IMG/VR virus record: IMGVR_UViG_3300009182_000065
Location: 1-61,174 of that record
Strand: one strand, 5' to 3'
Source: a virus
Length of the DNA stretch: 61,174 bases
Shown piece by piece: positions 12,095 through 43,694 of the stretch; position 1 is the stretch's first letter; every line of letters starts with the position of its first letter. Made by a program: the position numbers and the translations under genes. The notes under the pieces are model-generated. The model saw nothing but the letters and a program-made list of their open reading frames with translations. It did not search any database and was not told the DNA's origin.

Positions 12095-12131
12095 AATATT
12101 TTATATACTTACAATTTATATAATTATTAAA

Positions 12132-27675: not shown

Positions 27676-28734
27676 ATGAAAATTTCTAGTAAAAAAATAG
27701 GATGTTTTTCTGATATTCACATAGGTTTAGGTCAAGATGGCAAACAATGGCACGATATTGCTTTGAATTTTGCTAAATGGGCATCCGAAAAATATAAAGA
27801 ACTTGGTATTGATGAAATTATAATACCAGGCGATATATTTCACAATAGAAGCGAAATCAATGTAGCTACTTTAGCTACAGCAAAACAATTTTTTGATTAT
27901 TTTAAAGATTTTACCGTTTATATTTCTAGCGGAAATCACGATTGCTTTTACAAAAACAATAGCACGGTTAACTCTATATCAATTTTATCTGGATGGAACA
28001 ATATTTTAATTATTGATAAAGAATGCGTTGTTCTTAAAACACCTTATAAAGATATTGTTATGGTTCCTTGGGGCGTTGAATATGATCAAATACCAAAAAC
28101 AGACGGTATAATATTTGGTCATTTTGAAATCAGTTCGTTTTATATGAATTCCTACAAGGTATGCGAACATGGAATGGAATCTAAACAACTTTTTAAAAAG
28201 TCTCCTATGATTATTTCTGGTCATTTCCACAAAAAGGACGATAGAAAATATGATAAAGGTAGAATTGTTTATTTAGGTAGTCCATATCAACATAATTTTG
28301 GAGATACTGGTGATAGCAGAGGAATTTATGTATTAGATTTAGAGAAAACCGAACTACAATTTATAGAAAATAATATTTCACCTAAACATCTTAAACTTTC
28401 AACTAAAGCATTTGTGGAAAACCCCGAATCTATAAAAAGTGAATTGTTAAAGGAACAATTAAAAAACAATATTGTTAGTTTAATTATTGATACCGAAATT
28501 GATCAAGAAAAACTTGCACTTTTAACTTCAAAATTGCAAATAATAGAACCATTATCAATTAGAACTGATTTTATTACAGATAATACAGGTATTGAAACGC
28601 TCGACAATACAAAGGAAATAGATTCTGGCAACTTAATTAAAGATATGGAGGATTTTGTAAACAACTTAACCATAGAAAACAAACAAGAGGTCATTGATTA
28701 TCTGACCGAATCTTATAATTTATTATCTAAATGA
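27676..28734 (+). CDS. 47: Recombination nuclease subunit gp47 (SbcD/Mre11-like)
   Basis: 352 residues (T4 gp47: 339). Calcineurin-like phosphoesterase motifs appear in order: SDIHIG (12-17), GDIFHNRSE (53-61), SGNHDC (82-87) and GHFHKKD near 178. gp47 pairs with gp46 as the Mre11-Rad50-type complex that resects DNA ends for recombination-dependent replication. In T4 the two genes are adjacent. Here gp46 lies 15 kb downstream at 43716, with a glycan gene island between them. The end overlaps the next gene by four bases, so gp47 and the island share a transcript. Confidence 0.85.
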   Translation: MKISSKKIGCFSDIHIGLGQDGKQWHDIALNFAKWASEKYKELGIDEIIIPGDIFHNRSEINVATLATAKQFFDYFKDFTVYISSGNHDCFYKNNSTVNSISILSGWNNILIIDKECVVLKTPYKDIVMVPWGVEYDQIPKTDGIIFGHFEISSFYMNSYKVCEHGMESKQLFKKSPMIISGHFHKKDDRKYDKGRIVYLGSPYQHNFGDTGDSRGIYVLDLEKTELQFIENNISPKHLKLSTKAFVENPESIKSELLKEQLKNNIVSLIIDTEIDQEKLALLTSKLQIIEPLSIRTDFITDNTGIETLDNTKEIDSGNLIKDMEDFVNNLTIENKQEVIDYLTESYNLLSK

Positions 28735-29504
28735 ACAATTTAATAGGAATAGGCATTCTTGACCTTTATACACAAGAAGATTTACAAAATTGTTGGGATT
28801 CCATTCCTGACAAGTATAAAAATCATGATGATTTATTGACTCGTGTTTTTGTGGTAAGCAACAATGATAATAAACCAATAACTGATGCCCAGACAAAAAA
28901 ATACTCAACTGCTGTTCAAATGGCAACAATGAGAAATTATCTTGTTTCTCAAATGAGACTAAAGGGATGCAAATATTATTTTCTTTTACACTCTAATGTG
29001 ATTATTAAAGATCCAGAAATATTTGAAAAAACACTTAAATTAGCAGATACTTTCGGTACATGGGTAATCATGGGTCCTTCCACAATAGATCAAACAATTG
29101 AAGATGATAATGGGTTAAATTTAAACCTTTCAAAGAATTTAAATTCTGAATTTATGTTTTTATTTTCAGGAATTGTAAAAAACAATGGTTATTTTGATGA
29201 AAAGTTTTTTAATGGAAAAGATATTGATGTATTGGATTATGTTTTAAAATTAAGAAATAAAAAAGCATACCCTGCTACAAATTATCATCCAATAATATCA
29301 GAAGGTTTAGAAATTAAAAAAACGCAAATTAATAAATTGGGATTAAAGGATATTCCTGACATAGACAGAAGCGTTCAAATAAGTTATGCAAACTTTTTTA
29401 ATACGCACAAGTACATCCCAACCGAAACCGATCCCCCACACGTATCAGAAAAAGAACTTTTAGCATCAATGGAGGAAATTCAAAAAAATTATGCAAAACG
29501 GTAA
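28731..29504 (+). CDS. GT-A-like protein, glycosyltransferase candidate
   Basis: 257 residues. The fold order resembles the next two genes: an N-terminal IGIGILDLYT strand, a helix with AQTKKYSTAVQMATMRNYL (positions about 53-75), and KYYFLLHSNVIIKDPEIF near 85-105. In the position of the acidic motif it has HSNV rather than EDD, so a key metal ligand may be missing. It could be an inactive or divergent glycosyltransferase. First gene of the island, overlapping gp47 by four bases (ATGA). Confidence 0.5.
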   Translation: MNNLIGIGILDLYTQEDLQNCWDSIPDKYKNHDDLLTRVFVVSNNDNKPITDAQTKKYSTAVQMATMRNYLVSQMRLKGCKYYFLLHSNVIIKDPEIFEKTLKLADTFGTWVIMGPSTIDQTIEDDNGLNLNLSKNLNSEFMFLFSGIVKNNGYFDEKFFNGKDIDVLDYVLKLRNKKAYPATNYHPIISEGLEIKKTQINKLGLKDIPDIDRSVQISYANFFNTHKYIPTETDPPHVSEKELLASMEEIQKNYAKR

Positions 29505-30306
29505 AATAGGAGTTGGATTAATAACATGCGATAGACCTAATTTCTTTAATAAAAGTTTTTTATCTATTAAAGATATACCAAATATAGATATAGTCGTAGT
29601 GGATGATGGCATAACACCAGTTGTTGATGAAACTTTTGAAGTTGCATCTATTAAAACAATAGGCAAAATAGGTGTTGGTAAAGCAAAAAACAAAGCTTTA
29701 AAATATCTATTAGATAATAATTGTGAACATATTTTTTTAATGGAAGATGATATTTTTATTAAGAATGGTGAAGTTTTCCAAAAATACATCGACACTGCTC
29801 TTAACACGGGCGTTAAACATCTTAATTTTGGATTGCATGGCAACCACAATCTTGATCTTAATAAAAAACCAATCGTCAGAAAGACCATAAATTATACTGA
29901 TGGTTGTAAAATAGATTTGTACCCCAATCTTCTTGGTGCATTTAGTTATTACCATAGAGATGTTTTAGATAAATGCGGGTTAATGGACGAAGAATACTAT
30001 AATGCACTTGAACATGTTGATCATACCTATCAAATTATAAAAGAAGGATACCATCCTCCGTTTAGATGGTTTGCTGATATTCATAATTCCCAAAATTACC
30101 TTGAAGATATTGTTGAAGATCACAAAGAAAGTAAAATTAGATCGGATGAGGATTTTCACAAAAAATTTATAACAGCATTAGATATTTTTATTAAGAAAAA
30201 CAACTTTTCAGTAATTGGCAATTACGGACCCCAAGAAAAAAATTACACAATCCAAGAAGTAATACAAAATCTTATAACTATTCACGAAAAATATGCCAGA
30301 AAATGA
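29491..30306 (+). CDS. Family 2 glycosyltransferase
   Basis: 271 residues with GT2 signatures: GLITCDRPNF (9-18), VVDDG (36-40), and the metal motif MEDD (84-87). The C-terminal part has DGCKIDLYPNLLGAF and a HVDHTYQIIKEGYHPP segment near 175-190 containing the acceptor/catalytic region. Soluble, no membrane helices. It overlaps both neighbours by 14 bases. It is clearly paralogous to the next gene, sharing the opening, the ...HIF(L)(M/I)EDD segment and the FxWFxDxxNS(Q/D)xxxx motif. Confidence 0.7.
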   Translation: MQNGKIGVGLITCDRPNFFNKSFLSIKDIPNIDIVVVDDGITPVVDETFEVASIKTIGKIGVGKAKNKALKYLLDNNCEHIFLMEDDIFIKNGEVFQKYIDTALNTGVKHLNFGLHGNHNLDLNKKPIVRKTINYTDGCKIDLYPNLLGAFSYYHRDVLDKCGLMDEEYYNALEHVDHTYQIIKEGYHPPFRWFADIHNSQNYLEDIVEDHKESKIRSDEDFHKKFITALDIFIKKNNFSVIGNYGPQEKNYTIQEVIQNLITIHEKYARK

Positions 30307-31075
30307 AAAAATAGGTGTTGGTATAACCACTTATAATTCAGAAGGGTATTTTAAGACTCTTTATGATTCTCTTCCTCTTGATAAGATTGACGAATTGGTT
30401 GTAGTTAATGGTGGAGATCGTTATGAGGGAAAATATGAATGTGATTGGATACAACATAATAAAAACAGGTATCCTTCAGTGTGTAGGAATGATTGTATAA
30501 CATTTTTGTTAAATAAACAATGTCAACACATTTTTTTAATTGAAGATGACATGATTATAAAAAGTCCAAATATTTTTAATGAATATATCAATGCATCAAA
30601 GATTACGGGATTAAATTATTTTTGTTTTGCCAGTATATCAGTGGATGCGGGTGCTGCGCACGAAAGAACACCAAAATTAAAAGTAAATTATGGAAATTTA
30701 CTAGAAGTTTATTTTTATAATAATACCTGCAACGAATTTACCTATCATCATAGAAGTTGTTTTGAAAAAACAGGGTTATATGATGGAAACATGAGAGAAT
30801 TATTTGATGCAGATATGGTTTATCGTCAAACCTTAAAACATCCAAATATTTCTCCTTTTTGGTGGTTTAGTGACCTCGGTAACAGTGATGATTTAATAAA
30901 AAATAATCCAGATGCGCACAGTCGATTACAAACCGATAGACCAGACGGCTCAAGAGAACAGACTATTGTTGGAACAATGCAGTATTTTAAAAATAAACAT
31001 AGTTTAGCAGTTAATGAAATACCAATTAAAACGGAACTTGAGGTTGTTGATCATTTAAAAAAAATAAAACCATGA
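30293..31075 (+). CDS. Family 2 glycosyltransferase, paralogue of previous
   Basis: 260 residues. GVGITTYNSEGYF (8-20), LVVVNG (35-40), IEDD (83-86) and FWWFSDLGNSDD near 184-195 align with the gene at 29491. Tandem duplication followed by divergence is the simplest reading. Two additional cysteines near residues 50-68 distinguish it. Overlaps the next gene by four bases. Confidence 0.65.
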   Translation: MPENEKIGVGITTYNSEGYFKTLYDSLPLDKIDELVVVNGGDRYEGKYECDWIQHNKNRYPSVCRNDCITFLLNKQCQHIFLIEDDMIIKSPNIFNEYINASKITGLNYFCFASISVDAGAAHERTPKLKVNYGNLLEVYFYNNTCNEFTYHHRSCFEKTGLYDGNMRELFDADMVYRQTLKHPNISPFWWFSDLGNSDDLIKNNPDAHSRLQTDRPDGSREQTIVGTMQYFKNKHSLAVNEIPIKTELEVVDHLKKIKP

Positions 31076-31854
31076 AACTTGCTATAGGAATTAATATATT
31101 TGGATGTTATAAAAGACAAGATCATTGTATTGAAGTTTTAAACAAACTTGTATCCAAATATACAAATGACATAGAATTATATAATATAACATTTGAAAAT
31201 GAAAAAAATTATTTATTGGGGTTTAAGCACTTACCATTATTAAAACGAACCGCCAAAGATGTTGCGTTATATTCAATATCAAATAAACCAATAGCAAAAG
31301 ATTTTTTTGATATTCTTTCTGAGCAAGATTGTGATTACTTTCTCTTTGTTAACAGTGACATAATGGTTACTGAAAAATTAATAAAGTTAATTTTAAAAGG
31401 CGAATATGAAACGTATTGCGTCTCTAGGCATGATGTTTATGAAATAAACGATTTATCAGTTGATAAAATTATGCCTTTTAGAATTGAAATAGCTGGATTT
31501 GATGCATGGGCAGTTAAAAAAGATTGGTGGATTAAAAATAGAGATTTATTTGACGATTATATTTACGCAGAAGCATTATGGGACGTTTTCTTTTCGGTTC
31601 AAATGTACAATAATAGTAATTGCATACTTTGTAATAAAGATGTTTACTTGGCTCATGAAAAACATGAATTAAAATGGAATGAATTTTCAGCAGAGCATAC
31701 ACATAATGAAAAATTATGGAAAAGTACACCTTATCACGAAAGGTGGCATAAATTCATATACGATTATTTAACACAAAGACCAACATGGGGTCATTTTTTA
31801 TACCCATTACCAGATGAGCTTGAAAAAGAAAAAGAATATTTAAAAATTAAATGA
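31072..31854 (+). CDS. GT-A-like glycosyltransferase
   Basis: 260 residues. The motif FVNSDIMV (around residue 90) provides an NSD in place of the usual DxD, as in several phage and bacterial GT families. IAGFDAWAVKKDWW near 141-154 is a typical acceptor-site segment, followed by DDYIYAEALWDVFF and a HEKHE segment. Overlaps by four bases at both ends. Donor unknown. Confidence 0.55.
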   Translation: MKLAIGINIFGCYKRQDHCIEVLNKLVSKYTNDIELYNITFENEKNYLLGFKHLPLLKRTAKDVALYSISNKPIAKDFFDILSEQDCDYFLFVNSDIMVTEKLIKLILKGEYETYCVSRHDVYEINDLSVDKIMPFRIEIAGFDAWAVKKDWWIKNRDLFDDYIYAEALWDVFFSVQMYNNSNCILCNKDVYLAHEKHELKWNEFSAEHTHNEKLWKSTPYHERWHKFIYDYLTQRPTWGHFLYPLPDELEKEKEYLKIK

Positions 31855-32519
31855 AATATATAAATAAATTTTACGAAAAGATATACATTATTCATTGGAA
31901 ACCTTTAAAAGAAAGAAAAGAATATTTGTCTAAAAAACTTGAACAGCTTAATTTTTCACATTTAGTGGAATGGGTCGATCAATATGAAACCGAAGAAAAT
32001 TTACACGGTATTAAAAATGTTTTTAAACTAAATCTAAGACTTCTTGCTGTTAATATGTCACATATCTACTGTTACGAAGAACAAATTAAGCACCAATATA
32101 AAAACATTCTAATTTTAGAAGATGATATAGATTTTGGAGAACTAGACATCTTAACTTATTTGGATCAAGTTGCATTTGAATTTCAACAATTAGATGGAGA
32201 TATTGCATTTTTAAGCACTTGTTGTGGATTAAAGGTTAAAAAATTAAAACCACCAACTTTATTATATTATGATAAAAATTACGTAACCCGTTGCATGGGT
32301 GCTTATGTTGTAAATCTAAGATGCGCTGAAAAATTAATAGCAATGTGTACAAATTACCATGCAATAGACAGAGTTTTAAATTATTCTTTGCCTCTTATAA
32401 ATGTAAGAGTATTATGGTCGGGTTTACCTATTAGACAAGGCAGTGAAACAGGCAAGTATAAAAGCAGCTTTCCACTAGAAATAAGAGATGCTAACGGTAA
32501 TTACAAAAATATATCATGA
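31851..32519 (+). CDS. Family 25 glycosyltransferase
   Basis: 222 residues. IYIIHWKPLKERK (11-23) is the GT25 opening. MSHIYCYEEQ and NILILEDDIDF (LEDD at 89-92) are its core, followed by CMGAYVVNLRCAEKL (about 143-157) and a final SxxSxxSGKYKSSF-like end. LPS/glycan glycosyltransferase. Related to the genes at 1-276 (partial) and 39295. Overlaps by four bases at both ends. Confidence 0.7.
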   Translation: MKYINKFYEKIYIIHWKPLKERKEYLSKKLEQLNFSHLVEWVDQYETEENLHGIKNVFKLNLRLLAVNMSHIYCYEEQIKHQYKNILILEDDIDFGELDILTYLDQVAFEFQQLDGDIAFLSTCCGLKVKKLKPPTLLYYDKNYVTRCMGAYVVNLRCAEKLIAMCTNYHAIDRVLNYSLPLINVRVLWSGLPIRQGSETGKYKSSFPLEIRDANGNYKNIS

Positions 32520-33109
32520 AACTAGAATTAATTAAAAAATATTTTAACCCGCAAACCATATTAGATATAGGTGCACATCATGGCGAATTTAATCATCATT
32601 GTAGAGCTTATTTTCCTAATAGTTACATATTTTCAATTGAAGGTAATGAATTATGCGAAGAAATTTTAAAAAATAATAATTGTTTATATCTTATAGCACT
32701 TTTAGGTAAAGAAAAACAAAAAACCATTTTTTATAAAACAAAACTTGATTTACATTGCACAGGTAATTCTCTTTATAAAGAGTTGACAACTCATTATAAT
32801 GATATTAATTTAATAAAAGAAGAAAAAGAACTTCAAACTTTAGATGAAATTTTTTCAGCTAATGAAACTTTTGATTTGATTAAAATAGATACACAAGGTT
32901 CCGAGTTAGATATTTTAGAAGGAGGCAAAAAAATAGTTCAAAACGCAAAAGGCATTTTATTGGAAGTTTCCATAAAACCTTATAACGAAGGCGCACCGTT
33001 ATATAATGATGTAATAAATTATATGAATAGCATAGGATTTGAAAATAAAGAATTTTTAGATGGTTCAATGGAATCAATTCAAGCAGATATTCTTTTTATA
33101 AAAAAATGA
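32516..33109 (+). CDS. FkbM-family methyltransferase
   Basis: 197 residues. TILDIGAHHGEF (14-25) is the SAM-binding motif I, FSIEGNELCEE (41-51) motif II, and LIKIDTQGSELDILEGG (122-138) the diagnostic FkbM segment. Such enzymes O-methylate sugars or polyketides with S-adenosylmethionine. Placed among glycosyltransferases, it probably methylates a sugar of the assembled glycan, which is inference. Confidence 0.8.
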   Translation: MKLELIKKYFNPQTILDIGAHHGEFNHHCRAYFPNSYIFSIEGNELCEEILKNNNCLYLIALLGKEKQKTIFYKTKLDLHCTGNSLYKELTTHYNDINLIKEEKELQTLDEIFSANETFDLIKIDTQGSELDILEGGKKIVQNAKGILLEVSIKPYNEGAPLYNDVINYMNSIGFENKEFLDGSMESIQADILFIKK

Positions 33110-33798
33110 AACTTTATACCGTTTTTACAGAGTCACATTATGAAATGTTCAAAGACTATTTTATTAAATCTTTTCCCTTTGACACGAATTTAGAATTAGT
33201 AATTAAATTCAAACCACAGGTTTGTGTATCATCAGAGTTTCAAAGTGAAGGGTGGAGAGATACCATGAAATATAAAGTTCAATGTTTCATTGATGCTGCA
33301 TATGAAACAAAGGATGGCGAATGTTTTATGTTTTCAGACCCAGATATACAATTTTTTAAACCATTCCATGATGATGTTGTTAAAGAACTAGGTGATTTTG
33401 ATGCAGCATTCCAAAATGATTATGGTGGCGGTGTTAATACGGGATTTTTTATAATGAGATCCACCCCAAAAACTCGTGCATTTTTAAAAACCGTTCAAGG
33501 AAATCTTGAAAAATTTCCAGAAGAACAAGTTTGTTTTAATTATATAATCAATAACTTTGACAAATTGCCAAAAGTTGCATATAAATGGAAGATGCTACCA
33601 AGAGAATATTGGACTTATGGTGAAAAAGCAATACAGATGGGTGTTAATGGACAACCTTTTAGCACATGGAGTGGAGAAGGAGATTTTGATATTCCTGAGA
33701 ACATAATAATTCATCATGCTAATTGGGCAACACCATTCAAAAACAAAATAAAAATTCTTGATGTCGTAAAGGAAAAATACAATGCTAGAAACATTTAA
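33106..33798 (+). CDS. Nucleotide-diphospho-sugar transferase-like
   Basis: 230 residues. DGECFMFSDPDIQFF (64-78) carries the DPD metal motif, followed by YGGGVNTGFFIMRS (about 105-118), typical of GT-A enzymes acting in the GT77/DUF273-like group. A late HHANWATPFKNKI segment provides the C-terminal His seen in these enzymes. Overlaps the next gene by 17 bases. Confidence 0.65.
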   Translation: MKLYTVFTESHYEMFKDYFIKSFPFDTNLELVIKFKPQVCVSSEFQSEGWRDTMKYKVQCFIDAAYETKDGECFMFSDPDIQFFKPFHDDVVKELGDFDAAFQNDYGGGVNTGFFIMRSTPKTRAFLKTVQGNLEKFPEEQVCFNYIINNFDKLPKVAYKWKMLPREYWTYGEKAIQMGVNGQPFSTWSGEGDFDIPENIIIHHANWATPFKNKIKILDVVKEKYNARNI

Positions 33799-34663
33799 AA
33801 AATACTGCATCAGGGCAATATACCCACCTTACCCACCTTATCATCAAGGTGATTATTTGGAACAATATTTTTTAAAATTTTATTTAAAAAATATAGAAGA
33901 ATTTAAAAAGCTAGAAAGACAATTTATTCCAGTTTGTTGGACTGATCTTTATTTAAAAGCTTTACACATAATAAATGATTTAGCGGTTGATTTGTCAAGA
34001 TTGGATAAAGGTAAAAAATACTTTACCGTATCTCAACATGATGATGCACCAGCAGTGCAGTTATTACCACCAGATACGATTAATTTCTCCGCTGGTGGCA
34101 ATCAACCCAATACCATACCAATTCCATTAATATGTAGCGCAATACCAAACCCACCAAACCAAAAAAAAGATATATTTTGTAGTTTTGTTGGTAGCGTAAC
34201 ATCACCATCTACAACCTTTGGCGTATTAGCACATGATATAAGAATAAAAATGCTCAAAACATTAAAGGATAACCCCGAATATCTTTTAAAACCAAGAAAC
34301 TGGTCAGAAGATATTAAAAAAGAAAGACAGGATATGTTTATAGATATTACTGCTAGAAGTAAATTTACGCTTTGTCCAAGAGGATATGGTGCAACTAGCT
34401 ATAGAATGTACGAAGCAATGCAGTTGGGTTCTGTTCCAGTTTACATATACAACGATTTTCCCTTTATACCTTACGCAGACAAGATTAACTGGAACGAAAT
34501 AGCAGTTTTGATAAACCAAAATGATATGGATAATTTAGATGCTATATTAAAATCAATTTCCGATGATCAATACAATCATATGGTTAATAAAATTAAAGAG
34601 ATATATCCAAAATACTTTACACTTGAGGCAACATGTAATAATGTTTTAGAACATTTAAAATGA
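33782..34663 (+). CDS. Exostosin-like (GT47) glycosyltransferase
   Basis: 293 residues. The C-terminal half has the exostosin/GT47 pattern: FTLCPRGYGATSYRMYEAM (residues about 197-215), LGSVPVYIYNDFPFIP and a following segment DKINWNEIAVLI. N-terminal part includes DYLEQYF and YFTVSQHDDAP. GT47 enzymes in eukaryotes make heparan or xyloglucan; in bacteria and phages the products are diverse. It probably uses a nucleotide sugar in GT-B fashion. Confidence 0.7.
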   Translation: MLETFKKYCIRAIYPPYPPYHQGDYLEQYFLKFYLKNIEEFKKLERQFIPVCWTDLYLKALHIINDLAVDLSRLDKGKKYFTVSQHDDAPAVQLLPPDTINFSAGGNQPNTIPIPLICSAIPNPPNQKKDIFCSFVGSVTSPSTTFGVLAHDIRIKMLKTLKDNPEYLLKPRNWSEDIKKERQDMFIDITARSKFTLCPRGYGATSYRMYEAMQLGSVPVYIYNDFPFIPYADKINWNEIAVLINQNDMDNLDAILKSISDDQYNHMVNKIKEIYPKYFTLEATCNNVLEHLK

Positions 34664-35421
34664 AAAAAATATTATTTGTAATTGCAAGATATAATGATAA
34701 TAGGCAGCAAATATTTGATGAAATTATCTCTCCTAGAAACAAAGCTTATTGTGATAAGCACGGATTTAAATATATTGTAATTGGTAATTCCGCACCTTTG
34801 TTTTTATATAGGCACAATCCCACATGGTGGAAATTTTCTATTGTAAAAGATCTTATTGATCAAGGAAAACTAGAAAATGGTGATATCCTTGCTCATATCG
34901 ATGCTGATATGTATTTTGTTAATGATTCGGTTTCAATTGAAACACCAAAATCTTTTTCATATGCAATAGATTCTGGTAATACCCATTGCATGGGTTGGTA
35001 CAGCATAAAAGTTAATGATTGGTCAAAAAAATTAATCAATAATATTCTTTCACAAGAAAGATTTAATAAATTACACAATAATGTCACAATACATGACAGA
35101 TTTAAAACATATTCTAGTTTTTGGAATGAATTTAGAGAGCAAGCAAGTTGGTATAGTTTAGCAGGAATTAAAAGACATTCCGATAAACCGTTTTGGGAAT
35201 ATCCCAACAATGGTTTTCATAGTGAAATGAATGAAGATGTAGTCTATTCAATTGATGAATTAAATGAAAATGTTCAAATATTTGATACGGGATTTAATGT
35301 AACCGAATGGCAAGGCGAAAGTGGTTGCCAGTTTAATATTAATAAAGTTTCAGTCGATAATGTTGTAATTAGACATTTTGCTGGTGGTCAAGATTGGAAT
35401 AGTGTTAAAAATTGGTTATAA
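34660..35421 (+). CDS. GT34-like galactosyltransferase family protein
   Basis: 253 residues. RNKAYCDKHGFKYIVI (residues about 28-43), PTWWKFSIVKDLI and ILAHIDADMYF (75-85) give the layout of the GMA12/MNN10 (GT34) family. HIDAD is the metal-binding motif, and the preceding YC.KHG / W.K motif is diagnostic. The end has IRHFAGGQDWNS. Ends tail-to-tail with the minus-strand gene at 35416 with a 6-base overlap. Confidence 0.65.
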   Translation: MKKILFVIARYNDNRQQIFDEIISPRNKAYCDKHGFKYIVIGNSAPLFLYRHNPTWWKFSIVKDLIDQGKLENGDILAHIDADMYFVNDSVSIETPKSFSYAIDSGNTHCMGWYSIKVNDWSKKLINNILSQERFNKLHNNVTIHDRFKTYSSFWNEFREQASWYSLAGIKRHSDKPFWEYPNNGFHSEMNEDVVYSIDELNENVQIFDTGFNVTEWQGESGCQFNINKVSVDNVVIRHFAGGQDWNSVKNWL

Positions 35422-36114
35422 ACCTTTAGATTTTAAAAATGGTACAATATAATTGTTATATGTATTATTTGACATTGGGTAATATTCAAAGCAATGAAAT
35501 TTAAGCATTGTTACTGATGAATTAAGATTAAATGAAAAATTATATTTTTCAGAAATTCTTCTTGACCATTCGATATCTTCAGATTGCCCCCAAGTCAATT
35601 CCTCATTAAGAGGAATTTCTTTCATAATTTCTTTTTTAGCAACCCAATATGAACCATTTATATACATCCACTTAGAACATCTATTTTCAAAATAAGGTAA
35701 TAAATGCTCATGATTAGGTAAACTGTCTTTTGGTAACTCTTTTGATGAATGCCACAACCAATCTCTATATCTTTGTCCGTTATTTAATATAACATTACTA
35801 CATACTTTAAAATCATTACCAAATTTTAAATAACCTTCATACCAATTATTATCAAAAACATGATAATCATGCATATAAACAATATTATTATATTTTGCAT
35901 TTTCTGTTATTATATTTTTTTTTCTAGTAGTCCAATTTTGTTTTATAGATTCATCAAATTCAATAGTTTTAACAAAATTTTCATCTTTAAAATTAGATTT
36001 ACCAACAATTATAACTTCAAAATTTGGTATTTTTAATTTTTTAACCGAATCAATAATTGTAGGAATGTATTGATTTGTATGCTCGGTTGTAGTAATTCCA
36101 AAAGTAAAATCCAT
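35416..36114 (-). CDS. GT2-like glycosyltransferase
   Basis: 232 residues. FGITTTEHTN (3-12), YMHDYHVFDNNW (about 79-90), NGSYWVAKKEIM (about 150-161) and TWGQSEDIEWSRR (about 169-181) form a clear family-2 order: donor strand, acidic motif, product loop and the ED catalytic pair. It is on the minus strand within a mostly plus-strand island, together with the next two genes. Confidence 0.65.
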   Translation of the reverse strand: MDFTFGITTTEHTNQYIPTIIDSVKKLKIPNFEVIIVGKSNFKDENFVKTIEFDESIKQNWTTRKKNIITENAKYNNIVYMHDYHVFDNNWYEGYLKFGNDFKVCSNVILNNGQRYRDWLWHSSKELPKDSLPNHEHLLPYFENRCSKWMYINGSYWVAKKEIMKEIPLNEELTWGQSEDIEWSRRISEKYNFSFNLNSSVTMLKFHCFEYYPMSNNTYNNYIVPFLKSKGL

Positions 36115-36122
36115 AAATTAAT

Positions 36123-36866
36123 TTATATTAGAATCCAATTTTTTAAATCCAAAGGTCTTAAATCATGATCATCTGGTTTAGGATTTGGTAAATAGGGCCA
36201 TTTATTATCGCTTATTGGAAAATATATTTTATCTGCATTTGATATATATGCTGCAAACCATGAAAAAGTTGATTTTGATATACAGATTTTTTTTGCATTT
36301 TTAAGATAAATAAAATCTGACAAAGAATCTAATGATCTTATATTACATCCAAGACTACTAAAGTCTTTTAAATAATCGCTATAAGGCTCATCAGTAACAA
36401 TAGTGCATCGATTTGGCTTTTCCATTAATATAGCTTTTAAATACAAATTTTTATCAGTTATACTTCCACCACCAGCAAATACATAATCTGTTAAACGTAT
36501 ATGTATTACTAATTCATCATCTAATGGTTTTTCATATTGATTTTCGTTTTCAATTTGCAAATAATTTATTACATTCTGTCTTCCTATTTGTTTGAAACAT
36601 TCATATTTATGTATCATAAAATCAATACACCAACCATTTTTTGAATTTTTAACATTTTCAAAGAATTTTTCTCTATTATTATTGTAAATTTCACTTGCTG
36701 ATTTAATATTATCGTGTACTATACCATCTTTTATTTCATAGGTGTTTAAAAACCCTTGTATTTTTTCAGGTATAAACTTCATACCAGTTAATTTATGACA
36801 ATGCATAGCCGCTACGAAATAATGTAGTCTATTACCCATTCTACCATCGGATCTTATTGTTATCAT
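36123..36866 (-). CDS. GT11-like fucosyltransferase
   Basis: 247 residues. The N-terminus GRMGNRLHYFVAAM (residues 8-21) is the GGxGNQxFxYA-type donor loop of alpha-1,2-fucosyltransferases. LVIHIRLTDYVF (about 100-111) is the H-x-R-x-x-D-Y motif, and ICISKSTFSWFAAYI near 196-210 the conserved SxFSWWxA segment. GT11 transfers fucose from GDP-fucose. The second GT-B enzyme of this type is at 22558. Confidence 0.75.
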   Translation of the reverse strand: MITIRSDGRMGNRLHYFVAAMHCHKLTGMKFIPEKIQGFLNTYEIKDGIVHDNIKSASEIYNNNREKFFENVKNSKNGWCIDFMIHKYECFKQIGRQNVINYLQIENENQYEKPLDDELVIHIRLTDYVFAGGGSITDKNLYLKAILMEKPNRCTIVTDEPYSDYLKDFSSLGCNIRSLDSLSDFIYLKNAKKICISKSTFSWFAAYISNADKIYFPISDNKWPYLPNPKPDDHDLRPLDLKNWILI

Positions 36867-36911
36867 TTTATTAAATAGTATTAAAATTTATAATGTAACA
36901 TCAATTATATT

Positions 36912-37610
36912 TTAAACCCATACTCTAAAAGATAATCTTCTATTTCTAAAATTTAAAAAATCACTTGGTTCAATAAATTCTATATTTCCTGCGATATGAT
37001 TAAGCATATGTGCATCAAATTGCTCATTGTTTACGGAGTTTTCGCAAAAATGTTTAATTTGATCATCAGATAAATCTTTTAATTTTAAAAAATTATTATA
37101 AGAAGTAATAAAAAAATGGCTACTTGTTTCTGTTCTATTAAACTGTTTGTCTCCTATATGGAAACATGGTGATACGTTGGCATTTTCATTAAAAAATTTC
37201 TCAGCATCTTTAATTCTTACAAAATTATCATGTCTAGATCTAATGATATAATCATATTTTTTATTGTTTTCTTTTAGATATTTAGCAATATAAATCAAAT
37301 TGTATGCAAAAAAAGGAAATCCATCATCACGACATTGATGATATTGACTCATATCTTTCTGTTCCAAAAAAATTGGAATATCAACAACATCTTTTATTTG
37401 TTCATTTAAAAGGTTGATATCATAATCATAAAGATAATTTGCGCCTTCGTTTACTTTATGATTGCTATAGGTTCCTTTTTTGGGATACCAAGTTAAAAAA
37501 ATAACTTCGACATCATGAGTCGGAAAGCAATCCTTTAATGCTTGAATATTGGTTTTAATATCATCTAAACACTCTCTAATTGCGCCTACAAAAATCAATC
37601 CTAATTTCAT
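36912..37610 (-). CDS. Glycosyltransferase-like protein (WavE-like group)
   Basis: 232 residues. Opening GLIFVGAIRECLD, VIFLTWYPK (about 37-45) and YDYIIRSRHDNFV (about 121-133) show the pattern shared with the gene at 39992: a W at the second strand and R-x-R-x-D near the middle. This resembles bacterial WavE/LPS-synthesis proteins of unclear fold assignment. Function is inferred to be sugar transfer to surface glycan; support is moderate. Divergent from the nucleotidyltransferase gene. Confidence 0.5.
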   Translation of the reverse strand: MKLGLIFVGAIRECLDDIKTNIQALKDCFPTHDVEVIFLTWYPKKGTYSNHKVNEGANYLYDYDINLLNEQIKDVVDIPIFLEQKDMSQYHQCRDDGFPFFAYNLIYIAKYLKENNKKYDYIIRSRHDNFVRIKDAEKFFNENANVSPCFHIGDKQFNRTETSSHFFITSYNNFLKLKDLSDDQIKHFCENSVNNEQFDAHMLNHIAGNIEFIEPSDFLNFRNRRLSFRVWV

Positions 37611-37616
37611 TGATAA

Positions 37617-37643: not shown

Positions 37644-37661
37644 GTATTGATATTTATTGTA

Positions 37662-38411
37662 ATGGAAAGTGATATTAACATATTGATACCAATGGCAGGA
37701 TTAGGCAGCAGATTTGCACATACCCATCCCAACCAATTAAAACCACTAATTGATGTTTGTGGGGTGGCAATGATTAAAAGAGTAATTGAAAATTTAAATC
37801 AAAGCCAAAACGCAAATTTTATATTTGTGATACCTAATATTTTGAAAAATAACAAGGATTTTTTTAATATATTAAATGAATCAAACATAAAATACAAAAT
37901 ATTAGTAACAGAAACCCTTACGGAAGGACCCGCTTGCACGGCTTTATTAGCAAAAGATTTTATAAACAACAACACGCCATTAATAATAACTAATTGTGAT
38001 CAATACATTGCAGATTTCAGTTTAAATGACCTATTAACTTTTTCAAAAATAAACAATGCACATGGAGTTGTTGGTGTATTCCATTCTAATTCGAATAAAA
38101 ATAGTTATATTAAACTAGGAAATGATTTAAGAATACAGGAAATTAGAGAAAAAATTGTCATTAGTAATATTGCAACTAATGGTTTGCATTTTTGGTCTAA
38201 AGGTGTTTATTTTGTTGAGTCGGCAGAAAAAATGATTTCTAAAAATGAAAAATATAATAATGAATATTATATAGCACCTTCTTATAATAATATGATAACA
38301 GATAACAAAAATATTTTACCATACTATTATAATTTACATTTTCCAATCGGAACGCCCGACGATTTAAACATTTTTGTAAATGAAGTATTTAAAACTATAA
38401 AACACAAATGA
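37662..38411 (+). CDS. Sugar-nucleotide nucleotidyltransferase
   Basis: 249 residues from the ATG at 37662; a TTG five codons earlier is less likely. ILIPMAGLGSRF (residues about 6-17) is the nucleotidyltransferase loop (GxGxR), followed by KPLIDVCG (33-40) with the catalytic Lys. LIITNCDQYI near 109-118 has the metal Asp. It would make a NDP-sugar from a sugar 1-phosphate for the nearby transferases. Overlaps the GT10 gene by four bases. Confidence 0.75.
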   Translation: MESDINILIPMAGLGSRFAHTHPNQLKPLIDVCGVAMIKRVIENLNQSQNANFIFVIPNILKNNKDFFNILNESNIKYKILVTETLTEGPACTALLAKDFINNNTPLIITNCDQYIADFSLNDLLTFSKINNAHGVVGVFHSNSNKNSYIKLGNDLRIQEIREKIVISNIATNGLHFWSKGVYFVESAEKMISKNEKYNNEYYIAPSYNNMITDNKNILPYYYNLHFPIGTPDDLNIFVNEVFKTIKHK

Positions 38412-39295
38412 AAAAATTAAAAATAAACTTTGTAGACTTTTGGCCCAACCTATTTAAAGATGATAATTACTTCTATAATCTTTTAAAAACAAAATATGAT
38501 GTTGAAATAGATGAAGAAAACCCTGATATATTATTTTTTTCGGTTGATTACAATAACGAAAGAAACAGGGATAGATATAAAAACTGTTTAAAAATCTTTT
38601 ATACGGGTGAAAACGTTGAACCAAATTGGAATGAATGCGATTTAGCTTATACTTTCAGACATTCAAATGATCCAAGGGAATATCGTTTGCCTTTATGGGC
38701 ATTGCATTTGAATTGGTTTAATAGACCCTATATCGCAGAAAGAGATCATGCTTATTTACACGATTTAGAGTCATTTTTAGATAAAACCAAAATTAAAAAA
38801 CTAAACAAAACTGGTTTTTGTTCATTTGTTGCATCACAACCCAAAGGAAAAAGAGTTGATTTTGTTCCAAAGCTTTTTAATTACAAACCAGTACATTGCG
38901 CAGGACGTTTATATAATAACATAGGTGATGTTTTAGTTTGTAGAGGTGACCAAATAGAAAAAATAAACTTTTTAAAAAAATTTAAATTTAATATCGCAAT
39001 GGAAAACACATCTTGTCAAGGTTATTGCACAGAAAAAATAATACATTCAATGTTTGGAATGAATATTCCCATATATTGGGGATCAACATCTGTTGAAAGC
39101 GATTTTAATCCAGAATCCTTTATTAATTGTCATAATTTTTCTTCTGATGAAGAAATTATAGAAAAAATTAAAGAATTGGACATGGATGTAGAAAAATATG
39201 TTGATATGTTAAAAAAACCTTGGTTTAAAGATGGTAAAATTCCAGATTCCGTTCAACCTGATAATGTTATATCTTTAATATCTAATAAAATATAA
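38408..39295 (+). CDS. GT10 alpha-1,3-fucosyltransferase
   Basis: 295 residues. The signature FNIAMENTSCQGYCTEKI (residues about 196-213) and IYWGS (about 224-228) match GT10 (FNxxxENSxxxGYxTEKI ... PIYWG). KIFYTGENVEPNW (64-76) is the N-terminal motif of this family. GT10 enzymes add fucose from GDP-fucose in alpha-1,3/1,4 linkage, known in Helicobacter Lewis antigens. A phage copy could modify host or phage glycan. Strong family match. Confidence 0.85.
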   Translation: MKKLKINFVDFWPNLFKDDNYFYNLLKTKYDVEIDEENPDILFFSVDYNNERNRDRYKNCLKIFYTGENVEPNWNECDLAYTFRHSNDPREYRLPLWALHLNWFNRPYIAERDHAYLHDLESFLDKTKIKKLNKTGFCSFVASQPKGKRVDFVPKLFNYKPVHCAGRLYNNIGDVLVCRGDQIEKINFLKKFKFNIAMENTSCQGYCTEKIIHSMFGMNIPIYWGSTSVESDFNPESFINCHNFSSDEEIIEKIKELDMDVEKYVDMLKKPWFKDGKIPDSVQPDNVISLISNKI

Positions 39296-39990
39296 TGAAA
39301 CCTGATAAAATTTATATAATTCATTATACTAAATTAAAAGACAGGTATTCAAATTTAATTTCAATTTTAGAAAAATCTAAAATACCTTTTGAATTTATAA
39401 CACAATATGATAAAGAAGATTTAAAAGAAGATATATTAAATAAATTTTATCTACCAAATCCCGAAAAATTTACAAACAAAATTAAACCTTTATGGGATTG
39501 TAATATAAATACATTCAGAGTTTTAAGTTCTTCAGAATTGTCTTGCGCAATTAAACAACTAACTGCTATTAAAAAATTATCTCAAGAGTGTAAAAATTTT
39601 GGCATGATCTTAGAAGATGACATTATGTTCGATACGAATTTTAATTTACTTTTTAAAAAGTATATCCAAGAAACACCAAACGATTGGGATGCTATTTTTT
39701 TAGGTGAAGGTTGCGGTTTTGAATTTCAAAAGTATAAATTATCAACAAGTATAAGAAAGAGTGAAAATTCTTATCTAGTCAATAATCCCGCTACAAACTG
39801 CGCCGAAGCATATTTATTAAAACCTGATATTGCATCTAAAATATATGAATCATCATTACCGTTTCAATTAGCTTTTGATTGGGAACTTGCATATCAGTTA
39901 TATAAATTGAAAGCTAAAACATATTGGTGGTTCCCATCAATTGCAAAACAAGGTTCCAGAACAGGACAATATCAATCATCCTTAAGATAA
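39295..39990 (+). CDS. Family 25 glycosyltransferase
   Basis: 231 residues. IYIIHYTKLKDRY (6-18), ELSCAIKQLTAIKK (about 81-94), GMILEDDIMFD (about 103-113) and CAEAYLLKPDIA (about 170-181) match the GT25 pattern. The ending SRTGQYQSSLR resembles SETGKYKSSF of the gene at 31851, showing the two are paralogues. Overlaps the GT10 stop by one base. Confidence 0.7.
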   Translation: MKPDKIYIIHYTKLKDRYSNLISILEKSKIPFEFITQYDKEDLKEDILNKFYLPNPEKFTNKIKPLWDCNINTFRVLSSSELSCAIKQLTAIKKLSQECKNFGMILEDDIMFDTNFNLLFKKYIQETPNDWDAIFLGEGCGFEFQKYKLSTSIRKSENSYLVNNPATNCAEAYLLKPDIASKIYESSLPFQLAFDWELAYQLYKLKAKTYWWFPSIAKQGSRTGQYQSSLR

Positions 39991-39991
39991 A

Positions 39992-40717
39992 ATGAGAATA
40001 GCAATTTGTTTATCAGGGTTAACTAGATCCATGTGGTATTGTTTTCCTGTATTAAAAGAATATATAATAAACGAATTAAATGCAGATGTTTTCTTACATA
40101 CTTGGGAAATAGATAACGGTGGGCAAACTCCATGCGATGATGCAGCAAAATCATGTTCCATCGAAGAAAAAAAAGAATATATTGAAAACAGAATAAAACC
40201 AAAAAGATACGTAATAGAAAATTACAACGATTTTTTACAAAAATACCCAAGCCAAACTCATCCATCAACTGCTCCCATGTATTATTCAATCATGAAGTCT
40301 AATGCCCTAAAAAAAGAATATGAATTGGAAAATAATTTTAAATATGATGTTGTTTTTAGGATAAGAATGGACGTAATGTTTGATACTACGATTGATAAAG
40401 AAGAATTAAAAAACGTCATAGAGCAAAAAAAACTATATATAGGTTACCATAGTGTAGATAAAATTGAATCTCAACCAAAAATAAGTGATTTTTTTGCTTT
40501 TTCAACTTCTGAAAACATGGATTATTATTCGGATGCATTCAAATTATGGGAAAATAATAGATATTTAAATGGAGAAGATGTATTGAATACACATATATTA
40601 AATGCAAATTTAAAATATAAATGGACTAACACGAAAATGAAATTAACCTACCGTTGGCAAACGTGTAGAGCATATTTCGCCTATGCATATAGACAAAATT
40701 TTGCATATCAGGATTGA
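39992..40717 (+). CDS. Glycosyltransferase-like protein, paralogue of 36912 gene
   Basis: 241 residues. IAICLSGLTRSM (3-14), VFLHTWEID (about 34-42) and YDVVFRIRMDVMFD (about 117-130) correspond to the motifs of the gene at 36912. NSLxxEYELEN and a late YLNGEDVLNTHIL segment follow. Sugar-transfer role inferred. No gap to the previous gene (one base). Confidence 0.5.
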   Translation: MRIAICLSGLTRSMWYCFPVLKEYIINELNADVFLHTWEIDNGGQTPCDDAAKSCSIEEKKEYIENRIKPKRYVIENYNDFLQKYPSQTHPSTAPMYYSIMKSNALKKEYELENNFKYDVVFRIRMDVMFDTTIDKEELKNVIEQKKLYIGYHSVDKIESQPKISDFFAFSTSENMDYYSDAFKLWENNRYLNGEDVLNTHILNANLKYKWTNTKMKLTYRWQTCRAYFAYAYRQNFAYQD

Positions 40718-40741
40718 TTTTTTAAAATTTTATTATATAAT
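40714..40741 (+). promoter_or_regulatory. Sigma70-like promoter for GT4-like gene
   Basis: TTGATT (40714-40719), 16-base spacer, perfect TATAAT (40736-40741), eight bases to the ATG at 40750. Confidence 0.6.
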
Positions 40742-40749
40742 TCTTTTAC

Positions 40750-41712
40750 ATGAAAAAAATTGCTTTTTATTTGCCGCATATTGATATACAAGGAACAGGG
40801 GTGTCAGTTTTAGATTATTGTAAATTTAATCAAGAAATTCTTGGTAATAAATCATTTATGATTCATGATTTAAATCATCCAGCCAATCATGAACTAGCCA
40901 TTGAAAAATTTAAAAATAATAATATAGAAATAATATCTTTGAAGGGTAACGAAGATACGAATGAATTGGAAAGAAAATTGGACGAACTCAAAGTTGATGC
41001 AGTTTACATTCAAAAAACAGGAAGAAAGGATGACGGCAGATTTGCTAAAAATAAACCTTCATTCATACATGTAATAGGAACCCAAAATGATCCTCACGGG
41101 ACAGTCTATGCTTATGCTAGTGAATGGTTAAATCAGCATTGCACAGGGGGAACTTATCCAGTTGTTCCTTATATGGTTCATCTACCTGAACACCATGACA
41201 ATTTTAGAGATAAACTAAAACTACCCGAAAATGCAATAGTTTTTGGTAGAACAGGTGGAATATATTCTTGGAACATGCCTTGGGTTAGTCAGACTATAGA
41301 AAAAGCACTCTCGTTAAGAGATGATATATACTTTTTATTCGTACAGACCCCTCAATTTATAAAACACGAAAGAGTTATATATACAAGTCCATTTTCTGAC
41401 CTTTATATAAAAAGAAAATTCATTAACACATGTGATGCAATGATTCACGCAAGAGCAGAAGGCGAATCATTTGGTATGGCTTGTGCAGAATTTTCTTATA
41501 GTAATAAACCAGTTATAACATATAGTAATTCACCAGAAAGAAATCATATTTACGTTTTAAAGGATAAAGGTTTATATTATGATTCTCCTCAAACACTGTT
41601 AGATATACTTTTAAAATTTGAAATTCAAGATAAAGATTGGAATGCCTATCGTGAATTTACGCCAGAATCAGTAATTAACCAATTCAAAAAGGTTTTTATT
41701 GATAAAATATGA
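40750..41712 (+). CDS. GT4-like glycosyltransferase (GT-B)
   Basis: 320 residues. The opening IDIQGTGVSVLDYC (residues about 11-24) matches the G-G-xx-xx loop of GT-B enzymes. VFGRTGGIYSW (about 154-164) and a DAMIHARAEGESFGMACAEF segment (about 229-248) are the conserved E-x7-E / G-F-G region of family 4. The following NKPVITYSNSPERNHI is the donor-binding end. Overlaps the cupin gene by four bases; own promoter. Confidence 0.65.
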   Translation: MKKIAFYLPHIDIQGTGVSVLDYCKFNQEILGNKSFMIHDLNHPANHELAIEKFKNNNIEIISLKGNEDTNELERKLDELKVDAVYIQKTGRKDDGRFAKNKPSFIHVIGTQNDPHGTVYAYASEWLNQHCTGGTYPVVPYMVHLPEHHDNFRDKLKLPENAIVFGRTGGIYSWNMPWVSQTIEKALSLRDDIYFLFVQTPQFIKHERVIYTSPFSDLYIKRKFINTCDAMIHARAEGESFGMACAEFSYSNKPVITYSNSPERNHIYVLKDKGLYYDSPQTLLDILLKFEIQDKDWNAYREFTPESVINQFKKVFIDKI

Positions 41713-42029
41713 AAATTCTAAATATAGAAGATTTTATAGGTGGATGGTTCATTGGAGATTTTGAACCATCGGTTTTAAAAACCAAAGATTTTGAAGTTTG
41801 TTTTAAAAAACATGTTAAGGATGAAATTTGGCCCAAACATTATCATCGAATAGCAACCGAAATTAATTATTTGATTAAAGGTGAAATGATAATACAGGGT
41901 AAACTACTAAAAACGGGTAATATTTTTATCTTAGAACCAAATGAATGGGCTAATCCAGTATTTTTACAAGATTGTGAACTTATAGTAGTAAAAACACCTT
42001 CTATAAAAGGTGATAAATATGAAAATTAA
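41709..42029 (+). CDS. Cupin-fold protein
   Basis: 106 residues. The first cupin motif is complete: HYH at 44-46, E51 and G58 match HxH-x4-E-x6-G, so a metal site is likely. The second motif (GNIFILEPNEW near 72-82) keeps the Pro but lacks the usual His. Small cupins include isomerases, dioxygenases, sugar epimerase-like and sulfur-handling enzymes. Its position one gene before the RuBisCO-like gene recalls the cupin next to the RLP in R. rubrum, which acts on methylthio-xylulose 5-phosphate. A role in sugar-nucleotide metabolism with the upstream glycosyltransferases is an alternative. Confidence 0.65.
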   Translation: MKILNIEDFIGGWFIGDFEPSVLKTKDFEVCFKKHVKDEIWPKHYHRIATEINYLIKGEMIIQGKLLKTGNIFILEPNEWANPVFLQDCELIVVKTPSIKGDKYEN

Positions 42030-42057: not shown

Positions 42058-42066
42058 ATTATTATT

Positions 42067-43281
42067 ATGCTTAAATACGACATTTTTAAACCAGAATACA
42101 AATTAGACTCTTCCTTCTTTGCTAATTATTTTATTGTAACATACTTAATTGGTTCAAAAACCGATTTAAAAGATGCCGCATGGAATCTAGCTATCGGGCA
42201 ATCAATTGGAAATCCAAGTAAGCGTTCCGAATTTGAGAGCCAAGATTTGATTGACAATCATTGTGCTATTATTTTACATGATGAAAAATCCTTAGAGAAT
42301 CTTAAAGAAGGTATTGTTAAGATTGCTTTTGCTGAAGCAAATATTAACTTTAAAACGGACGGAGTATCCCAATTGCTAGTCCAAATAATGGGAGGTCAAT
42401 GTGACATTGATATTTTTGAAAAGTGTGTTATTAAAGATATAAAATTAACTCCAAATATGGAGAACTGTTTGCAGGGACCTAAAATTGGTCTAAAAGAAAT
42501 GAGAGAATATTGTGGTGTATCACAGGAAAAGCCTTTATTTGGTGGGATTGTGAAACCAAAAGTTGGTCTTTCGCCACAAAAAAATCTTGATTTGGTAAAA
42601 AAACTCATTGATGGCGGCTGTAACTTCATAAAAGAAGATGAAATTCTTTCAGATCCCGATCATTGTAGAATTGAAGATCGTGTTCCCCCTGTAATGGATT
42701 ATATTAAAAGCACTAATGCAAAAGTTTATTACGCAGTTTCAATCCATTCCGATCCTGCACACATTTTAAATCGTGTTAAGCAAGTTTATGAATTGGGTGG
42801 AAATGCTGTTCATGTAAATTTCCATTGTGGATTAGGTGTTTATAAGTCTATTAGAGAACTTGATTTACCAATTCTAGTTCACTTCCAGAAAAGCGGTGAT
42901 AAAATTTTAAATTGTTATGATCATAAATTTGCAATTGATCAAGATGTAATCTTTAAACTTGTTGGGCAAAGTGGCTGTTCGACGCTTCATGCTGGTATGA
43001 TCGGTGGATACATGGATAATGAAACACAGGCGGTAAAGAAGACTATTTCCATGTTGAATGATATAAATTGCGTCCCAGCTTTAAGTTGTGGAATGCACCC
43101 AGGTTTAATTGATTATATTTTAGATGTGGTTGGACATAGCAACTGGATGGCAAATGTCGGCGGTGCATTAACATCACATCCAAGTGGTACTTTGGCAGGT
43201 ACAAAGGCTATGAGACAAGCAATCGATAAGAATTACGGGGATGAATATCATCAAGCCATTGAAAAATGGGGTAAGAAATGA
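42067..43281 (+). CDS. RuBisCO-like protein (form IV type, non-carboxylating)
   Basis: 404 residues, full-length RuBisCO large-subunit layout: N-terminal domain (1-130) and TIM-barrel (135-395). FGGIVKPKVGLSP at 158-170 corresponds to the KPKLGLS motif with Lys163 and Lys165. GGCNFIKEDE at 183-192 matches GGLDFxKDDE, retaining the carbamylated Lys (189) and metal ligands Asp191 and Glu192. In loop 6, HAGMIGGYMD at 308-317 has Tyr315 where RuBisCO has Lys334. The N-terminal E60 position appears to be Gly (IGQSIG at 43-48), and SxGG is ALSCG at 338-342. These losses exclude normal CO2 fixation and point to a RuBisCO-like enolase or isomerase. The four-base overlap with the next gene (ATGA) couples their expression. 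Confidence 0.9.
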   Translation: MLKYDIFKPEYKLDSSFFANYFIVTYLIGSKTDLKDAAWNLAIGQSIGNPSKRSEFESQDLIDNHCAIILHDEKSLENLKEGIVKIAFAEANINFKTDGVSQLLVQIMGGQCDIDIFEKCVIKDIKLTPNMENCLQGPKIGLKEMREYCGVSQEKPLFGGIVKPKVGLSPQKNLDLVKKLIDGGCNFIKEDEILSDPDHCRIEDRVPPVMDYIKSTNAKVYYAVSIHSDPAHILNRVKQVYELGGNAVHVNFHCGLGVYKSIRELDLPILVHFQKSGDKILNCYDHKFAIDQDVIFKLVGQSGCSTLHAGMIGGYMDNETQAVKKTISMLNDINCVPALSCGMHPGLIDYILDVVGHSNWMANVGGALTSHPSGTLAGTKAMRQAIDKNYGDEYHQAIEKWGKK

Positions 43282-43694
43282 TAGTAATTTCTCATAGAGG
43301 GAATACTACTGGCCCAGTTAAACAAACCGAAAATCGACCCCAAACAATTCAACCTTTATTGGATAAAAATATCCACGTGGAAATTGATGTTTGGTTAATA
43401 GGTGACAGTTTTTTCTTGGGTCATGATGACCCTTTATATAAAACCGATATAAAATTTTTATTACAAAAAAATCTCTGGTGTCATGCAAAAAACTTAAAAT
43501 CATTAGAAGAAATGTTAAAACACGATATTAATTGTTTTTGGCATGAAAACGATAAACACACTTTAACATCTAATGGTTATATTTGGACTTATCTTAATCA
43601 AAAAACATGTGATAAATCCATAATAGTTGATTTATCAAAAAACTGGAAAGAAAAAAATTATAATTGCTATGCCATTTGTGTTGATTACTTGTAA
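43278..43694 (+). CDS. Short glycerophosphodiester phosphodiesterase-like protein
   Basis: 138 residues. ISHRGN at 3-8, TEN near 17-19, VEIDVW at 34-39 and LGHDDPLY near 47-54 follow the GDPD order HRG, EN, E-x-D and HD, so the catalytic His pair and acidic ligands are present. It is far shorter than typical GDPDs (about 240 residues), ending after a small C-terminal HENDKHTL and YAICVDYL part. It could be a minimal GDPD or a sugar phosphodiesterase acting with the glycan genes. Coupled to the RuBisCO-like gene. Confidence 0.65.
   Translation: MIVISHRGNTTGPVKQTENRPQTIQPLLDKNIHVEIDVWLIGDSFFLGHDDPLYKTDIKFLLQKNLWCHAKNLKSLEEMLKHDINCFWHENDKHTLTSNGYIWTYLNQKTCDKSIIVDLSKNWKEKNYNCYAICVDYL

Follow-up and report, generated by a model that had tools for sequence, protein, structure and literature searches.

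A strongly conserved gene in a T4-like phage encodes a RuBisCO-like protein (RLP) that keeps the metal-binding centre of the superfamily, has lost the residues needed for carboxylation, and lies in a conserved cassette with a cupin, a nucleotidyltransferase and a shortened glycerophosphodiesterase-like protein (mini-GDPD). On balance, we consider this RLP to be a superfamily member that does not carboxylate and now serves the biosynthesis of nucleotide sugars, as a Mg2+/carbamyl-lysine enolising isomerase that would work with the cupin to feed the nucleotidyltransferase. On a wider view, for which we see the case as evenly poised, it would represent an undescribed branch of the superfamily whose chemistry is biosynthetic rather than catabolic or carbon-fixing, which with the cupin makes the precursor of a nucleotide-activated sugar, which has spread among aquatic phages and the surface-glycan islands of SAR11, and which accounts for most or all of the RuBisCO-family genes in IMG/VR.

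The gene, its glycan island and its fold

The window (the whole stretch of DNA analysed, 61,174 nucleotides) belongs to a T4-like phage, as seen from its gp47-, gp46-, gp43-, UvsX- and gp41-like PHROGs; the proteins recognised in this way include the SbcD/SbcC pair, a gp43-type polymerase, a UvsX-like recombinase, a DnaB-like helicase and an ssDNA-binding protein. An earlier note on this DNA had placed the RLP gene between gp47 and gp46. This is correct, but the gene does not adjoin both; it sits near the gp46 end of a glycan island of about 15 kb (28731-43694) that separates the two. The features are as follows.

27676..28734, + strand: gp47 (SbcD-like), left border of the island (PHROGs)
28731..37610, no strand assigned: remainder of the island, starting at gp47, with GT25, FkbM methyltransferase, exostosin GT47 and other glycosyltransferase-like genes
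37662..38411, + strand: nucleotidyltransferase of the sugar-phosphate type (PF00483; Pfam and PDB profile)
38408..41712, + strand: glycosyltransferase genes between the nucleotidyltransferase and the cupin, namely GT10 fucosyltransferase-like, GT25-like, weakly DUF7796-like and weakly group-1 glycosyltransferase-like (Pfam), presumed to use activated sugars
41709..42029, + strand: cupin, single-domain metal type, 106 aa, HxH(x)4E(x)6G (H44, H46, E51, G58)
42067..43281, + strand: RLP gene, 404 aa (ORF, Pfam, PDB profile, fold and residue alignment)
43278..43694, + strand: mini-GDPD, a shortened glycerophosphodiesterase-like domain of 138 aa, overlapping the RLP stop codon
43716..45524, + strand: gp46 (SbcC-like), right border of the island (PHROGs)

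A chimera or mis-assembly at 41700-43700, which the earlier note had named as a finding that would refute its reading, is ruled out, because two contigs from other metagenomes repeat the locus on the RLP/gp46 side (L001 over 14,371 bp at 99.98% identity, L020 over 7,057 bp at 99.97%); in addition, the family is encoded in no fewer than 345 stretches of IMG/VR. Host contamination is likewise ruled out by the T4-like replication genes that flank the locus on both sides. Elsewhere in the window, large proteins with many GGxxN/trimeric-head-like repeats (5010-13820) are probably tail-fibre or adhesin components of the phage, and at the left edge (296-2177) a sulfotransferase-like protein is followed by a CxxxCxxC radical-SAM-like protein, as judged by eye.

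The RLP reading frame is intact, running from an ATG start through 404 codons to a stop at 43281. Its product matches PF00016 (RuBisCO_large) with E=1.6e-34 and 120 bits against a cut-off of 30.1, and a profile search of the PDB returns 99 distinct sequences at E<=1e-3. The AlphaFold2 (AF2) model has a pLDDT of 92.2, and in Foldseek the closest fold is that of the type III RuBisCO 8dht (TMq 0.85, E 5e-29), with about 23% identity to form III RuBisCO in the fold alignment; the family motif HFQKSGD is present at residues 272-278. Pfam score, PDB matches and predicted fold thus agree in placing the protein inside the RuBisCO superfamily, as had been claimed. Between phage copies that are 92-98% identical, dN/dS is 0.01-0.06, which indicates strong purifying selection on the gene.

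Active-site residues and the position of the clade

With spinach numbering, and with RLP positions mapped on form III structures, K163/K165 of the RLP correspond to K175/K177, K189/D191/E192 to K201/D203/E204, Y315 to K334 and G44 to E60. The alignment thus bears out the KPK lysines, the carbamyl-Lys/metal set, the Tyr at 334 and the Gly at 60 that the earlier note had read from the sequence; the RLP also keeps H308, S340, G342 and G365-G366. Among the 104 members examined, K175, K177, K201, D203, E204, S379, G381, G403 and G404 are identical throughout, so that the lysines and metal ligands expected of a carboxylase are all in place, with K201 as the putative site of carbamylation. Just as uniformly (104/104 each), the loop-6 Lys K334 is replaced by Tyr, E60 by Gly, N123 by Gly, H294 by Gln, T65 by Asn and G380 by Cys. 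R295 is Lys in 95 of the 104 and H327 is kept in 93; since the positions of R295, H298 and H327 vary in 9-11 of the 104 sequences, members of the clade may bind phosphate in different ways. The combination of a retained K177 and a lost K334 is unlike that of all other RLP groups sampled. From what is known of RuBisCO chemistry, such residues allow Mg2+ binding and enolisation and do not allow the addition of CO2 or O2. Carboxylation by the clade is therefore very unlikely on sequence grounds, and the protein was rightly described as RuBisCO-like and non-carboxylating; it also falls outside every carboxylase clade in our tree.

In this maximum-likelihood tree of 58 sequences (which holds neither the R. 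rubrum shunt RLP nor IV-GOS sequences), all 24 phage and cellular members form one group with support of 100/100 and a stem of 0.93, separate from forms I, II/III and III, from the MtnW/4nas lineage, from the OiaX type and from the Chlorobium/R. palustris RLP2 type. Azospirillum is the first branch within the clade, and most phage sequences fall in one subclade, which includes a Patescibacteria MAG. The form IV assignment made earlier is apt in a loose sense, as a RuBisCO homologue outside forms I-III that is devoid of the carboxylation residues, but the clade joins no form IV group sampled, so that the term serves here merely as a bucket. A group called IV-GOS is reportedly defined by Tabita et al. 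2007, and the present clade may take in, or coincide with, a part of it, the two being set side by side by description only. The ocean data of the GOS survey do contain RuBisCO homologues that were left unplaced (PMC1821046); like the present proteins, these are ocean-derived RLPs outside known clades, and the SAR11 members of our clade would be expected in data of that type.

Several other readings of the protein have to be weighed against the residues, the tree and the neighbourhood. The nearest solved structures, by profile as well as by fold, are form III RuBisCOs (8dht; 1geh and 3a12 of Thermococcus kodakarensis), and KPK, K201, D203, E204, H327, S379, G381, G403 and G404 are common to both. 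This fold, together with the retained KPK motif and carbamyl-Lys/metal triad, might suggest a genuine RuBisCO, carried by the virus as an auxiliary gene for CO2 fixation, and virome papers do describe viral rbcL, one of them with a claimed activity (PMC12615777). However, none of the 104 members has E60, N123, H294 or K334 (the full set of changes from form III being E60G, T65N, N123G, H294Q, R295K, H298D, K334Y and G380C), the clade and the gene neighbourhood differ, no Calvin-cycle gene is seen nearby, and all NCBIfam RuBisCO equivalogs score far under their cut-offs (form III at 141.6 against 497 bits), leaving this reading with hardly any probability at all. The replacement of several residues that bind substrate in known family members could instead suggest a catalytically dead protein with a scaffolding, binding or regulatory role in a biosynthetic complex. 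A scaffold does not require the metal and carbamyl-Lys residues, yet these are invariant in 104/104, and the dN/dS of the gene speaks against it as well, making such a role improbable.

A role in methionine salvage or the MTA-isoprenoid shunt, as envisaged when the earlier note put forward methylthio-sugar phosphates as substrates, would have the RLP isomerise 5-methylthioribulose-1-P and the cupin release methanethiol, so that sulfur is salvaged during infection. The enolase MtnW (acting on 2,3-diketo-5-methylthiopentyl-1-P; 2oej and 2zvi) resembles the RLP in being non-carboxylating, in having Gly at 60 and in keeping the metal triad. It differs in having H294, Ser at 334 and no K177, and in having at position 123 a Lys, presumably the catalytic K98 of the Geobacillus enzyme, which is present in 2oej and 2zvi and is Gly in all clade members. 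The RLP scores 98.7 bits with TIGR03332, for which the cut-off is 513.6, and it stands apart from MtnW in the tree. Nor does the clade group with 4nas-type RLPs; we take 4nas to belong to the MTA-isoprenoid-shunt (DeepYkr) group, of which it is the sole representative in the tree, the R. rubrum protein being absent, and it too has lost the K177 that is kept here. What speaks for the shunt is the sequential action on 5-methylthioribulose-1-P, in Rhodospirillum and Rhodopseudomonas, of an RLP (RPA2169) and the product of the adjacent cupin gene (RPA2170; PMC5893883), and a cupin adjoins the RLP in loci of our clade as well. The shunt, however, serves sulfur salvage and not a glycan setting, no nucleotidyltransferase is described for it, and no special similarity of the cassette cupin to the cupin methylsulfurylase was found. 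The neighbours of the RLP are glycan genes, and no methionine-salvage family was found among the nearby genes scanned. With the separate lineage, the Gly at 123 and the retained K177, methionine salvage is unsupported, and we regard it as quite improbable.

A catabolic RLP like OiaX (the 3-oxo-isoapionate-4-P decarboxylase) or a hamamelose-type oxygenase, which would scavenge carbon by cleaving or decarboxylating a sugar phosphate that is branched or oxidised, has in its favour that OiaX-type proteins, including related RLPs on plasmids, are among the full-length matches at about 25-30% identity, align over most of the RLP and act on phosphorylated sugar acids. In the OiaX-type loci inspected, however, the RLP mostly adjoins a four-carbon acid-sugar kinase or another sugar kinase, and no such kinase is seen here; R295 and K334 are kept and K177 is lost in the OiaX type, the reverse of the present clade; the score is 117 against a cut-off of 700 bits; and the two are separate in the tree. 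A nucleotidyltransferase partner does not fit a catabolic role either, and we think this an unlikely account, on a par with the scaffold.

A conserved cassette and a proposed pathway

The earlier note had tied the RLP to nearby glycan genes, and this link proved stronger than claimed. Clustering of the genes that neighbour the RLP yielded three partner families, the nucleotidyltransferase, the cupin and the mini-GDPD, which were counted in the best 80 of at least 345 viral RLP loci, with flanks of up to 5 kb. Within 5 kb of the RLP, the nucleotidyltransferase is present in 79/80 of these loci, the mini-GDPD in 69/80 and the cupin in 64/80; after dereplication at 85% identity to 49 RLP clusters, the corresponding counts are 48/49, 43/49 and 42/49. 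Where the flanks are complete, every partner but one lies on the strand of the RLP. Among the 80 best cupin loci, the RLP occurs in 72 and the nucleotidyltransferase in all 80. The cupin gene usually lies within a few nucleotides of the RLP gene (the median gap is 1 nt), but since about a fifth of the RLP loci have no cupin within 5 kb, this partner may be dispensable. A family of O-methyltransferases is confined to loci with the RLP (14/49, as against 0/61 loci without it; p=4e-6). In one locus (L004:2017-3480) the cupin is fused to an extra C-terminal region of about 380 aa that looks, by eye, like a SAM methyltransferase.

The nucleotidyltransferase matches PF00483 at 2e-9 in Pfam, and its nearest solved relative in the PDB profile search is 4evw (4e-33), which is labelled merely as a sugar pyrophosphorylase, so that this search gives no specificity. 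It has the NTP_transferase domain and a loop of the G-x-G-x-R type, with A11, G12, R16, K26 and D112 invariant. In the mini-GDPD the motifs HRGN, ENxP, E-x-D and GHD are all conserved, and H6, R7, E18, N19, E35, D37, H49 and D50, which correspond to the catalytic and metal residues of GDPDs, are invariant in 18 sequences. At 138 aa it falls short of a full-length (beta/alpha)8 barrel, and AF2 predicts a compact fold (pLDDT 97). It has no Pfam match, and Foldseek finds nothing in the PDB at E<=1e-3; the best GDPD is 2o55, with TMq 0.57, large gaps and E 0.12.

The RLPs whose function is known catalyse the enolisation or isomerisation of sugar phosphates; one of them acts together with a neighbouring cupin (PMC5893883). 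In the pathway that we favour, which leads to a nucleotide sugar, Lys189 would be carbamylated and, with Asp191 and Glu192, would hold Mg2+. A ketose phosphate or keto-acid phosphate would be bound with His308 and Ser340 on one side and Gly342, Gly365 and Gly366 on the opposite one. Lys163 would act with the metal to promote enolisation of this substrate, and reprotonation would give an isomer or epimer. Neither CO2 nor O2 would be added, since Lys334, Glu60 and Asn123 are gone (being Tyr, Gly and Gly, respectively). The neighbouring metal cupin might then carry out a second isomerisation, a tautomerisation or a similar step. The resulting sugar phosphate would be converted to an NDP-sugar, presumably an unusual one, by the nucleotidyltransferase, with the mini-GDPD as a possible phosphodiesterase-type helper of this branch, and the glycosyltransferases of the island would place the sugar on a host envelope glycan or on the virion. 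Gene association does not order these steps, and the sequence given here is the one that we infer. As to purpose, the glycosyltransferases of pelagimyophages have been proposed to alter the O-chain of the host, thereby blocking competing phages (PMC7029224); by analogy, this would be a reasonable purpose for the cassette. The small size and strong conservation of the cassette make the pathway directly testable with three or four proteins.

Viral rbcL, cellular relatives and an HAD route

An initial scan of IMG/VR found 20 contigs (identity about 42-100%). With a broader alignment the number rose to at least 345 stretches that encode the family, of which the best 80 are at 47% identity or more; RLP-bearing contigs reach 294 kb. 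No match was obtained with tblastn among INPHARED phages. PHROGs holds no family for the RLP and matches its cassette partners to families of unknown function only, and the viral structure library BFVD contains nothing RuBisCO-like (best TM about 0.4).

Published work counts rbcL among the carbon-fixation genes of viruses from the Great Salt Lake (PMC8506154), an estuary (PMC13390420), landfills (PMC12607003), where it grouped with 'RbcL-like' proteins, and mine soils (PMC12615777), where an activity was claimed for it on co-expression with rbcS. The genes of the lake, landfill and mine-soil papers are, like the present one, RuBisCO-family genes in viral contigs, the comparison being by description only, and the accessible portions mention neither the cassette nor a link to glycans. 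The remark in the earlier note that its author knew of no RLP described in a phage therefore holds for the cassette, within the literature found, but not for viral rbcL or 'RbcL-like' genes as such (PMC12607003, PMC8506154). When 2.9 million IMG/VR contigs were scanned with form I, II/III and III motifs, only four relatives turned up, and each belongs to the present clade; because two motifs were used, the scan could have missed genuine but rare RuBisCOs of viruses. Since the clade, present in hundreds of aquatic phages, has lost the carboxylation residues, a viral 'RuBisCO' gene should not be taken to stand for carbon fixation by default, and K334, E60, N123 and H294 should be checked before such a claim is made for a RuBisCO-family match in a virus. 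This bears on the current claim that viruses boost carbon fixation, for which viral rbcL genes have served as evidence (PMC8506154, PMC12615777).

Eleven of 85k species genomes carry a member of the RLP clade: SAR11 single cells and MAGs, a Crocinitomicaceae MAG, a Patescibacteria MAG, an alphaproteobacterial MAG and Azospirillum oleiclasticum. In one SAR11 family the RLP is found in 2 of 197 genomes, a rarity that is expected of an accessory island gene. SAR11 are among the most abundant cells of the sea, and the shared cassette points to an unknown sugar chemistry common to them and to phages. To our knowledge, all RLPs of known function are catabolic or act in salvage, so that a biosynthetic RLP, if the reading is true, would widen the known roles of the fold. 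The basal member in A. oleiclasticum (L032:4396-5643) lies on a 12.7-kb contig on which none of the three partner families was detected, and this genome encodes a further RLP as well as a form I RuBisCO.

Families of the cassette also occur together on contigs of SAR11, Crocinitomicaceae, alphaproteobacteria and Patescibacteria, in several cases beside surface-glycan genes; in several SAR11 RLP loci no cupin was detected. The mini-GDPD usually occurs apart from the RLP, which is found in 13 of 80 mini-GDPD loci. Its companion differs accordingly: a fusion of a HAD part, which is a phosphatase-like domain, to the nucleotidyltransferase is present in 34 of 61 viral mini-GDPD loci that have neither RLP nor cupin, as against 12 of 80 RLP loci, whereas a stand-alone nucleotidyltransferase is present in 76 of the best 80 viral RLP loci. 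The same pairing of mini-GDPD and HAD::nucleotidyltransferase, again apart from the RLP, is found in SAR11 loci L095-L099. From this contrast it follows that the mini-GDPD and the nucleotidyltransferase form a core unit, which would be fed either by the HAD enzyme or by the RLP and cupin. No literature was found on a capsule pathway that combines a nucleotidyltransferase, a GDPD and an HAD enzyme.

Three further observations concern these loci. Four SAR11 loci (L028, L029, L030 and L031) carry beside the RLP a second, divergent nucleotidyltransferase-like gene (IPVAGPN...) in which the G-x-G-x-R loop is lost. In the Crocinitomicaceae MAG, a different glycan cluster that contains no RLP holds a second mini-GDPD (L082, contig C232 of genome G005). 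The arrangement of a mini-GDPD beside the HAD::nucleotidyltransferase fusion (L095-L099 and L181-L260) is widespread in phages and occurs in about 3% of the sampled genomes of the SAR11 family.
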